Part shown: piece by piece, positions 6,763 through 40,411 of the stretch
Position numbering within the stretch: the stretch's first letter is position 1
Layout of the letters: every line of letters starts with the position of its first letter
Assembly: GCA_017303995.1 (NCBI GenBank)
Contig: JAFLBE010000040.1
Coordinates: 1 to 41,176 of the forward strand
Length of the DNA stretch: 41,176 bases
Reading direction: 5' to 3'
From: Bacteroidota bacterium
GTDB lineage: Bacteria; Bacteroidota; JABWAT01
Position numbers and translations under genes: made by a program
Notes under the pieces: generated by a model
Databases searched by the model: none
What the model was told of the DNA's origin: nothing
Seen by the model: only the letters and a program-made list of their open reading frames with translations

Positions 6763-6850
6763 ACGTGGTACGTGGTACGTGGTACGTGGTACGTGGTACG
6801 TGGTACGTGGTACGTGGTACGTGGTACGTGGTACGTGGTACGTGGTACGT
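6763..6850. repeat. Perfect heptamer array, unit ACGTGGT, 12.6 copies
   Basis: Twelve exact copies of a 7-bp unit plus four bases, with no mismatch. It starts about 90 bp upstream of the pcrA promoter. Such purity suggests recent expansion or active homogenisation. Because it is perfect, its copy number could vary between isolates or be mis-assembled. Confidence 0.97.
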
Positions 6851-6880
6851 GTGGAAATTAAACCATCAAATTAAAAAATT

Positions 6881-7000: not shown

Positions 7001-7049
7001 TATTCGCAATTCGTAATTCGTAATTCGAAATTCGCAATTTTAAATTCTA
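7001..7049. repeat. Heptamer array, unit AATTCGN, overlapping a stop codon
   Basis: Seven units in register: TATTCGC, then AATTCGT twice, AATTCGA, AATTCGC, AATTTTA and AATTCTA. The last unit contains the TAG stop (7047-7049, minus strand) of the phosphatase gene. Confidence 0.85.
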
Positions 7050-9623: not shown

Positions 9624-9670
9624 TACGTGCTACGGGGTACGGGGTACGGGGTACGGGGTACGGGGTACGG
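9624..9670. repeat. Heptamer array, unit TACGGGG
   Basis: TACGTGC (9624-9630), then five exact TACGGGG units (9631-9665) and a partial TACGG. The unit differs by one base from a rotation of the array at 6763-6850 (TACGTGG), which lies on the other side of the phosphatase gene. Confidence 0.93.
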
Positions 9671-9789: not shown

Positions 9790-9838
9790 CAGCTAACAGC
9801 TAACAGCTAATAGCTAATAGCTAATAGCTAATAGCTAT
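9790..9838. repeat. Heptamer array, units CAGCTAA then TAGCTAA
   Basis: Seven units: three exact CAGCTAA, three exact TAGCTAA, then TAGCTAT. The block-wise C-to-T switch is what is expected if a mutated unit is then copied onward from one end. It ends 9 bp before the lipoprotein stop codon. Confidence 0.93.
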
Positions 9839-37225: not shown

Positions 37226-40200
37226 ATGAAACAACTGCTCATGACCTTCGCCGGAATATTTATTCTGAACTGGTCTTTGTCTGCCCAAACCACCTGGACG
37301 GTTAATTCAACCGATGACACCAATACCGGATCTGGAAACACCGGAACTTTACGGTATGTGCTCACCCAGATTAATTCAACAGCTTCAGGAAGTCACACAG
37401 TTGATATGACCGGACTTTCTGGTACACTGACTTTGACCAGCCTTTTGCCAGCCATCAACTATTCTACCGTTATCAACGGACCGGGATCGGGCAGTTTAAC
37501 CATTTCAGGAAATAACCTGTACCGGATTTTCTTTGTCGGTGCCGGAACGTCTCCTTTTACTTCTGTAGCTCCAGCTTCGCCAACTGTTGAAATTAAAAAC
37601 ATGACACTTGCCAATGGAAAAGGAAAAGGCGGAAATGGTGCTGCCGGTGGCGGTGGTGCTGCTGGAATGGGCGGAGCCATTTTCCAGAATGCCGGAATTG
37701 TAACCGTTGAGAACGTTATTTTTTCATCAAATAATGCAACCGGTGGAAATGGATCATCAGCGGGAGTTGGTGGCGGCGGTGGATTTGGTGGTGACGGACA
37801 AGTCATCTATACTGGTGGCGTGAGTGGATACCTGGGTGGGGTATCCGGAACCAATACGGTTGTTGCTGGAATTGGTGGTGGTGGTGGATACCGGGCAACC
37901 TTTGGTGGTGCCGGTGGATTTGCTGCGGGTGGTGGATCCGGTGGTGCGGTTTCCAACGGTGGTGCTGGTGGAACCGGTGGATTCGGCGGCGGCGGTGGCG
38001 GCGTAGGAAATACTGCATCGAATACACCGGGTAATGGCGGATTTGGTGGAGGAAATGCAGGTGCAAATAAAGCTGGCGGTGGCGCCGGAATGGGTGGAGC
38101 TGTTTTCCTGAAATCAGGTTCACTTTATCTTAAATCCTGTTCATTCCTGAATAATTCTACTACAGCCGGAACAACTACGTCACCCGGACAAAGCGGATCA
38201 ACTTACGGCGGAGCCATTTTTCAATATGGCGGTTCACTTTTTACTTTGGCCGTGACTTATGGTTCTGCAGGAACTGCGAATTCAGCAACCAACTCAGCAG
38301 ATTATTACCGGTACGGTGGAACTTATGCAACTTTGAATCCAACCGTTTCGCTTCCAAAAGTAACTGAAAAAACGTCGAAATCGGCGGTTTTAAATGGGAA
38401 AGTTAATCCGAACGGAGGTTCTACATCCTCCAAATTTATTTATTCAACTGATCCTGATCTGGCAGGTTTTTCCGAAACTGCTTCTCAGTCGGCTGGTTCC
38501 GGAACTGCTGATGTTGCAGTTTCTGCAGCTCTTGCAGGACTTACCCCAAAAACAAAATATTACTATAAACTGATCGCCGAAAATTCATTTGGAACTGATT
38601 CAACAGATGTTGCCTCATTTGTTACCGTTCCTGCAGTTGACGGATTGGTTCTCTGGCTTCGTGCGGATACGCTCGTGACAAAAGATGCTTCCAATTTTGT
38701 TTCTACCTGGGGAGATTTGTCTGATCAGGGAAATAATTTCAGTCAGGCAACTTCTTCAAAACAACCATTGTGGGTTGATGCAGCGTTGAATTCTGAACCA
38801 ACTGTTCGCTTTGATGGATCAAATGATGTGCTCGGTTCACTCAAGTCGTTAAATCTGACCGCAGGTGCTTCCATTTTCATCGTTGCCAAAAACAGAATCC
38901 GTAAAACGAACAACGGACTATTCCGTGTGGCTGCAGCTGAAACCGGTGTGGCTTCTGATCTTGAACTATATTGGGAAGCTGGATCCATTCCGACAACCGG
39001 TGGCAATTTTGTTGCTTCTTCAAACCGGCCTGCCACAGGAACAACCGGTTTTACCTGGAAGAGAGATAATGATGCCGGCCCGGTTTCAGGAACCTATTAT
39101 GTGATGACAAACCGGTACATTTCAAACGGATTTCATGACTATTTTACCAACTCAAAAGGAATGGAAATGAATTCTGCTTCCATGCAAACCATGCAGCTGC
39201 CACTTTCTGCAAATATTGGTTTTATTGGAGTTGGTGTTAATTCGGCCATCGGCGAAGCCACTTACTATCATGATGGGGATATTGCAGAAATTATGGTTTT
39301 CGACCGGTCTGTGAGCAATGAACAGAAAATATTTATTGAAAGCCGTCTTGCAGCTCATTATGGAATTGCAAACTCAACATCAGATGCACCTTCTGTATTT
39401 GCAAATGCAGCCGGCTCAGGAAACTATATTTTAGGAACGACTGGTGCCGTATTGAATTTTACAGATCCAAGTAATACAGCAGGTTCATTAACTGCTGTAA
39501 CCGGAACCAATCCGGGTTCAATCGGGATTTTACCTGATGGCGTTACAGCTTTTTCTTCTGATAAATTCTGGTCGATCAGTCATTCCGGGTTAACCTCATT
39601 TATTTATTCAATTACTCTTGATTTGACCGGAATCAGCGGAATTACGGATTTTGAGTCGTTGAAAATTTTGAAACGTGCTGATGCAACTTCTCAATGGCAG
39701 GATGTCTCTCAGGCGCCAATCAATGCAACTGTTATTTACCATGAACCCTTTATCACCGTTTATGGCTTGAACAGTTTTTCTGATTTTGCAGTCGGAAGCA
39801 ACGAAGAAAATACCCTCCCGGTTGAACTTTCGGCTTTCACAGGTCAGATTTCAGGCGGAAAAGTAGTTTTGAACTGGTCTACTGCAACCGAAACCAATAA
39901 TTATGGCTGGGAGATTCAGAGACAAGAAGATAGAAGTCAGAAGTCAGAAGACATCCCTTCGACAGGCTCAGGGACCAAAAACTGGGAAACAATCGGTTTT
40001 GTTGCCGGCAAAGGAACAACAACTGAATCACATTCCTATTCATTTTTGTCACCTGTCACAAGTCACAAGTCCCTTTTCAGACTGAAACAAACTGATCTGG
40101 ACGGAAAATTTGAGTACAGCCGTATTCTGAGCATCGAACCTTTGCCTCAAAACTTTGAGTTGTCGGGCAACTATCCGAATCCGTTTAATCCGTCAACTTC

Positions 40201-40411
40201 AATCAAGTTTTCACTGCCTGAAAAAGGAAATGTAACCTTGAGAGTTTATTCTGTTCTGGGTCAGCTCGTTGAAACCAGAATTCTATCGAATCTTGAAGCC
40301 GGTGTGCAACTGGTGCCGTTTTTAGGTTCTGGCTTGGCTTCCGGACATTATTTCTATCAGCTTCAGTTCAATACAAAAGTTCTGAACGGAAGAATGACCC
40401 TTCTGAAGTAA
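37226..40411 (+). CDS. Large secreted Gly-rich protein with FN3-like, LamG-like and type IX-like sorting domains
   Basis: A 1061-residue protein. The signal peptide is LLMTFAGIFILNWSLSAQ. The N-terminal region (~20-130, TWTVNSTDDTNTGSG) resembles beta-helix adhesins, followed by a Gly-rich low-complexity region (~130-300, GGNGAAGGGGAAGMGG). An FN3-like module follows (~370-470, KTSKSAVLNGKVNPNGG). A LamG/ConA-like lectin domain spans ~475-710 (GLVLWLRADTLV, EPTVRFDGSNDVLGS, YYHDGDIAEIMVFDRSV). A further beta domain leads to LPVELSAFTGQISGGKVVLNW and the sorting domain (NYPNPFNPSTSIKFSL). It is probably a surface adhesin or matrix protein. Residues 900-919 and 941-950 are encoded by repeat insertions, listed separately. 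It has its own promoter and terminator. Confidence 0.88.
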   Translation: MKQLLMTFAGIFILNWSLSAQTTWTVNSTDDTNTGSGNTGTLRYVLTQINSTASGSHTVDMTGLSGTLTLTSLLPAINYSTVINGPGSGSLTISGNNLYRIFFVGAGTSPFTSVAPASPTVEIKNMTLANGKGKGGNGAAGGGGAAGMGGAIFQNAGIVTVENVIFSSNNATGGNGSSAGVGGGGGFGGDGQVIYTGGVSGYLGGVSGTNTVVAGIGGGGGYRATFGGAGGFAAGGGSGGAVSNGGAGGTGGFGGGGGGVGNTASNTPGNGGFGGGNAGANKAGGGAGMGGAVFLKSGSLYLKSCSFLNNSTTAGTTTSPGQSGSTYGGAIFQYGGSLFTLAVTYGSAGTANSATNSADYYRYGGTYATLNPTVSLPKVTEKTSKSAVLNGKVNPNGGSTSSKFIYSTDPDLAGFSETASQSAGSGTADVAVSAALAGLTPKTKYYYKLIAENSFGTDSTDVASFVTVPAVDGLVLWLRADTLVTKDASNFVSTWGDLSDQGNNFSQATSSKQPLWVDAALNSEPTVRFDGSNDVLGSLKSLNLTAGASIFIVAKNRIRKTNNGLFRVAAAETGVASDLELYWEAGSIPTTGGNFVASSNRPATGTTGFTWKRDNDAGPVSGTYYVMTNRYISNGFHDYFTNSKGMEMNSASMQTMQLPLSANIGFIGVGVNSAIGEATYYHDGDIAEIMVFDRSVSNEQKIFIESRLAAHYGIANSTSDAPSVFANAAGSGNYILGTTGAVLNFTDPSNTAGSLTAVTGTNPGSIGILPDGVTAFSSDKFWSISHSGLTSFIYSITLDLTGISGITDFESLKILKRADATSQWQDVSQAPINATVIYHEPFITVYGLNSFSDFAVGSNEENTLPVELSAFTGQISGGKVVLNWSTATETNNYGWEIQRQEDRSQKSEDIPSTGSGTKNWETIGFVAGKGTTTESHSYSFLSPVTSHKSLFRLKQTDLDGKFEYSRILSIEPLPQNFELSGNYPNPFNPSTSIKFSLPEKGNVTLRVYSVLGQLVETRILSNLEAGVQLVPFLGSGLASGHYFYQLQFNTKVLNGRMTLLK
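39925..39976. repeat. Heptamer array plus CTTCGACAGGCTCAG element inside a coding sequence
   Basis: Four 7-bp units in register (AGAAGTC twice, flanked by AGAAGAT and AGAAGAC, 39925-39952) run directly into a palindromic element: arms TCCC/GGGA around the core CTTCGACAGGCTCAG (39957-39971). The core is the reverse complement of the intergenic family at 4304-4318. Both are in frame and encode residues 900-919, between the beta domain and WETIGFVAGKG. Confidence 0.85.
40048..40075. repeat. Second heptamer array inside the same coding sequence (GTCACAA)
   Basis: GTCACCT, GTCACAA, GTCACAA and GTCCCTT in register. It encodes the SPVTSHKSL stretch in a loop just before FRLKQTDLDG. Confidence 0.75.

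Follow-up and report, generated by a model that had tools for sequence, protein, structure and literature searches.

The question raised by this locus is how spacer-type repeats came to be read in frame inside a secreted protein. The protein is encoded in the window (the whole 41,176-nt stretch of DNA that was analysed); it has a signal-like start and a C-terminal sorting domain that reached 34 bits with TIGR04183 at a cut-off of 23, as expected of a client of the T9SS type A pathway, and the PF18962 score of the same protein was slightly below its cut-off. The preliminary description had placed an AGAAGTC heptamer array, a palindrome and a GTCACAA array within this gene. We found all three at the positions given there and in the frame of the ORF (Table 1), and Tandem Repeats Finder returned rows at 39932-39950 and 40055-40071. 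Their presence is not a matter of chance, as judged from the counts of reversed patterns given below and from shuffling, in which 0 of 100 shuffled sequences matched the number of AGAAGTC and GTCACAA dimers observed in the window. The occurrence of in-frame spacer-type repeats in loop 1 is confirmed.

The FN3-like domain (~107 aa) was modelled by AlphaFold as a beta sandwich with a pLDDT of 85, in which model residues 41-58, corresponding to loop 1, were of low confidence and without strands. Foldseek matched this domain model, with weak E-values, to FN3 and further Ig-like folds, and a sequence search of solved structures gave no significant match. Loop 1 reads AGA CAA GAA GAT AGA AGT CAG AAG TCA GAA GAC ATC CCT TCG ACA GGC TCA GGG ACC AAA AAC. 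Its palindrome is imperfect, and the window copy alone folds weakly (-2.6 kcal/mol, z -0.64).

Table 1. Features of the gene and of its two repeat-bearing loops in the window
Feature	Position	Strand	Remarks
ORF, secreted protein with T9SS type A sorting domain	37226..40411	+	1061 aa; TIGR04183 E 2.1e-8
FN3-like domain, residues ~864-970, 5' of the sorting domain	39815..40135	+	multicopy, 43 copies in own genome
Loop 1, residues 899-919, 63 nt, nearly all repeat modules	39920..39982	+	87 nt of other repeats in orthologue; model strand-free there
Four heptamers AGAAGAT/AGAAGTC/AGAAGTC/AGAAGAC, 28 nt	39925..39952	+
REP-like palindromic element CCCTTCGACAGGCTCAGGGACC	39955..39976	+	contains 15-mer at 39957-39971
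Loop 2 heptamers GTCACCT/GTCACAA/GTCACAA/GTC	40048..40071	+	orthologue same length, two substitutions
T9SS type A sorting domain, residues 983-1052	40172..40381	+	TIGR04183

The closest orthologue (G002, L164/L262) encodes a protein that is ~97% identical, and its DNA is ~94% identical on both flanks of loop 1. Its loop is entirely different: two sister palindromes in inverted orientation, GCGGAGCCTGAGGCTCTCGAAGGC...GACCCTTCGAGAGCCTCAGGGTCC, fold there into a long hairpin (z -6.8), and the same 87-nt composite is present in other paralogues too. Homologues lacking residues ~900-919 had been named as a test of insertion, and this orthologue is missing precisely the residues that the heptamers and the palindrome encode, with another repeat in their place. 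As paralogues without a repeat have a loop of 6-8 aa, the proposal that repeat modules entered the coding sequence is supported in the case of the heptamers and the palindrome. It had also been argued that 28 nt of heptamers would shift the frame and call for compensation, which is moot, the whole loop being 63 nt compared to 18-24 nt in repeat-free loops. The GTCACAA array had been regarded as a further insertion, to be lacking in homologues at ~941-950; a recent insertion is rejected here, the orthologue having kept the length of the array with two substitutions. Across paralogues, loop 2 gave a lag-7 match of 0.353, compared to 0.225-0.281 at non-harmonic lags, and 16 runs compared to 0-2. 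Palindromes were seen in loop 2 of some paralogues, for example as a 21-nt difference (TCCCGCAGTAGCGGGACCGGC), and in G003 a REP-like element lies there in reverse orientation.

Loop 1 was compared in 21 orthologue pairs from G000 and G002; by our own count about 10 loops had changed (36-67% identity, with flanks at 74-94%) and 9 were kept at 93-100%. Between L080 and L255, 9 nt in one are swapped for 21 nt containing the palindrome in the other, and the adjoining loop bases are identical. In a set of 108 domain copies from four genomes, two of which lacked a usable loop and were omitted from some counts, the median length of loop 1 was 8 aa with no repeat call (65 copies), 15 aa with a heptamer (10), 23 aa with a palindrome (28) and 23 aa with both (5). 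The class without a repeat call takes in some degenerate heptamer loops (AGAAGTTAGAAGATAGAAGTGAGAAG), and the length contrast is therefore conservative. The view that the elements are mobile or expandable and may create loop diversity stands as a pattern of turnover, with no benefit of the diversity shown.

Patterns related to these modules are dispersed in the genome of the window. AGAAGTCAGAAGTC had 67 near matches compared to 1 for the reversed pattern, and the corresponding numbers were 69 and 0 for CTTCGACTYCGCTCAGKGACC, 26 and 2 for TTCGACARGCTCAG, and 13 and 0 for CCTTCGAGARCCTCAGGGTCC. Three of the 26 TTCGACARGCTCAG matches are coding, all in loop 1 of two genes, and the L002 copy lies upstream of a hexosaminidase-like start. 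The sister elements that were checked occurred within long ORFs solely in loop 1. The kinship of the first two modules with spacer DNA, as suggested in the preliminary description, is borne out by kin which, among the copies checked, lie elsewhere between genes, and by one spacer (L346) and one loop (L344) with 36 identical nt in common, CAGAAGTTAGCCCTTCGACTCCGCTCAGGGACCAAA, a heptamer-palindrome compound.

We also analysed an 836-kb sample, which comes partly from T9SS gene clusters, so that the loop share of palindromes and arrays is overstated. It contained 21 period-7 arrays, compared to 0-2 at non-harmonic periods (14 and 21 being harmonics of 7) and 1 in a Markov control, and 16 of them lay outside ORFs, although ORFs cover 91% of the sample. 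Of the five coding arrays, four lie in the FN3-like domain, three of these in loop 1 and the fourth in loop 2 of a paralogue; the fifth is inside an aminotransferase-like ORF. The palindrome patterns were found 18 times in loop 1, 6 times in spacers and 4 times in ORFs of less than 200 aa. The array of the aminotransferase-like ORF (L094:16038) is AAAAATC x3.6, which encodes KIKNQKSKS and is a rare case of coding heptamers away from the FN3-like domain. As a repeat site in the window genome, the sorting domain was rejected, 57 copies of it being without a period-7 signal.

The palindromes share several properties with REPs and REPINs. They are short, and their many dispersed copies (69, 26 and 13 matches for CTTCGACTYCGCTCAGKGACC, TTCGACARGCTCAG and CCTTCGAGARCCTCAGGGTCC, with 0-2 reversed) are mostly intergenic; where the loci were fetched, the matches were intergenic or in loop 1, except for a few in short ORFs. 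Their arms are compensatory, with the core-adjacent arms 99% paired as CAC/GTG or CCC/GGG and the outer arms 59% paired, compared to 30-42% when slid. Two kinds of setting were seen for spacer copies: those of the CAC/GTG type are at the tip of terminator-like hairpins whose arms are site-specific, and those of the CCC/GGG type have heptamers on their flanks. A lag-7 run within 90 nt was found for 8 of 45 spacer copies, compared to 0-1 at other lags. In the L330-L360 spacers, CTTCGACTCCGCTCAG is often the tip of terminator-like hairpins, the arms of which are site-specific and pair. The element was absent from the flanks of the seven Y1-type genes of the genome, save one nearby variant at C65, and from the flanks of the Y1_Tnp genes of relatives; the Y1/RAYT-type genes of the window genome are flanked by other palindromes. 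As this link to RAYT is lacking, we term the element REP-like and not a REP member. Five spacer copies gave no match in Rfam. In-frame insertion in protein-coding genes, which marks the Rickettsia palindromic elements (RPEs), was found here as well.

Among relatives, 28 of 60 have the FN3-like domain, and in a sample of the phylum 176 of 394 genomes have it. In loops outside the family of the window, the nucleotide match at lag 7 was 0.369 (n=1400), and 0.368 in a second set (n=3123) that was largely distinct from the first and chosen partly for longer loops, compared to 0.24-0.28 at non-harmonic lags and 0.243-0.248 at lag 7 in the rest of the domain. By a simple binomial these values are many standard errors out, but the copies are related, and we take the replication as the evidence. 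Since seven is not a multiple of the codon, period 7 is a signal at the level of DNA. The loop heptamers differ between genomes (GTATCAA, AAAAGTC, AGTCAGT, GTTCAAG, GGCAAAA), and so do the palindromes. GTATCAA has 39 near matches in its own genome, G030, and 2, 0 and 0 in three other genomes. The loop palindrome of G034 has 12 copies in G034, and four of the five copies of its variant in G092 are in loop 1. Judged by such counts, the loop repeats are host-specific in the two cases checked, GTATCAA in G030 and the G034 palindrome; not every loop heptamer is abundant host-wide, AAAAGTC having just 5 near matches in G235. Loop 1 is not the sole site, as the sorting domain too contains the same repeats in two other genomes. 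In T9SS sorting domains of G030 (L450, L457, L459), the strand TSIKYQVAS that follows YPNPFNPTT is likewise encoded by the GTATCAA heptamer, and in G034 (L474, L478) the T9SS sorting domain itself has a loop with an in-frame REP-like element. An assembly artefact is unlikely, as such loops recur across independent assemblies that include single-contig genomes.

Loop 1 is likely to be a permissive site where the dispersed repeats of a genome settle in frame. We consider it a landing site because the loop DNA consists of repeats whose other copies, as far as checked, lie between genes, because the loops differ between orthologues with conserved flanks, and because other repeats are found there in other families. 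Dispersed repeats would insert throughout the genome and be retained only at sites that tolerate an in-frame insert, such as a disordered surface loop, and inserts breaking the frame or the fold would be removed by selection. The heptamers probably originated by strand slippage. For the palindromes, the source may have been either non-autonomous REP/REPIN-like elements or recombination with copies in spacers; we observed neither a transposase step nor a recombination step. The encoded loop peptide would be mostly incidental and probably near-neutral. With ~40 copies per genome, the domain gathers many insertion events, although the copies are related and counts of them are not independent.

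Alternatively, a few old insertions were copied with the domain as T9SS genes duplicated, and short conversion tracts swapped the loops among paralogues, with little new insertion. This agrees with the recurrence of near-identical loops (KQKLEDRSEKLE; the AEPEALEGSAS..PSRTSGS composite), both in several paralogues and in relatives, and gene duplication or short-tract conversion among paralogues may account for some common loops. However, the window gene has changed in the loop alone, being 94% identical on either side; loops have matching compounds in spacers of their own genome (once over 36 identical nt); and in other genomes it is dispersed repeats of those genomes that occupy the loop. We therefore find it doubtful that copying explains most of the loops; duplication and conversion surely contribute, and are not fully separable from insertion here.

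Acceptance of dispersed repeats in a permissive loop could be extended by assuming that selection keeps the loop open as a diversification site, where repeat turnover, with period-7 repeats as its main fuel, varies the surfaces of many T9SS-exported proteins. We regard this as unlikely; if true, the surface variation would serve binding, or escape from phages or grazers. It is highly improbable that the heptamers act as a contingency switch, in which the copy number shifts the frame 5' of the sorting domain and turns secretion on or off: a unit of seven is indeed not divisible by three and the sorting signal follows the array, but the loop arrays are short (~2-4 units), many loops are palindromic without heptamers, and the domain copies are in open frames, with a stop inside 1 of 149 own-genome matches (a contig-end fragment) in a search that favours open frames. 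The palindrome is translated in different frames (PSTGSG, LRQAQG) and in both orientations (...ERSR...), so it is not the peptide itself that is conserved, which speaks against selection for a single peptide. A low-complexity peptide selected for itself, with the DNA repeats as a by-product of codon choice, would fit the many loop copies rich in Q, E, S, K and D, but has very little chance of being right given this use of several frames and strands and a period that is not a codon multiple and is prominent in the loops and not in the rest of the domain.

Elements of this kind are already known. In Rickettsia, palindromic dispersed repeats are inserted in frame in protein-coding genes (PMC10969869), but these RPEs are ~150 bp and occur in many unrelated genes, whereas the repeats described here are 20-90 nt, are concentrated in one loop of one multicopy domain and are often accompanied by heptamer arrays. 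REPs and REPINs (GTAG- and CGTC-tagged) are mostly intergenic and sometimes inside ORFs in several phyla, and neutrality has been proposed for intragenic REP insertions in modular proteins (PMC3733652). Our elements are likewise short palindromes, single or in inverted pairs, and mostly intergenic, but no partner RAYT was found here and the same loop has been taken up by different repeats in different families. Heptamers have been described as over-represented among bacterial repeats (PMC4692102). Heptamer arrays that are mostly intergenic, with few in ORFs and those mainly at protein edges, have been described for TAACTGA in Beggiatoaceae and for Cyanobacteria (PMC4679880), and heptameric SSRs for Xanthomonas, Nostoc and Calothrix (PMC4679880; PMC4692102). 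These resemble our period-7 arrays, which are also mostly intergenic; in contrast, many different heptamers here converge on one internal domain loop across genomes. In the open-licence literature we found no paper containing the 15-mer, no link between T9SS domains and REPs, and no account of a common landing loop. The kind is therefore known, and the phylum-wide hotspot appears to be new.

The loop offers a natural, countable and phylum-wide record of repeat DNA entering proteins, with dozens of comparable loops per genome. The origin of heptamer repeats and REP-like elements has long been unclear, and with orthologues that carry or lack each insert their birth, spread and turnover become measurable. 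The loops show where proteins accept new sequence, and they call for caution, as homology in such loops can stem from repeats and not from common descent.

Additionally, a RAYT-type gene with an adjoining palindrome array at a spacing of ~54 nt was observed in L091. In the window itself, a spacer contains an ACGTGGT x12.7 array at 6763-6851, and further spacer heptamer arrays lie at 7002-7047, 9631-9670 and 9791-9837.
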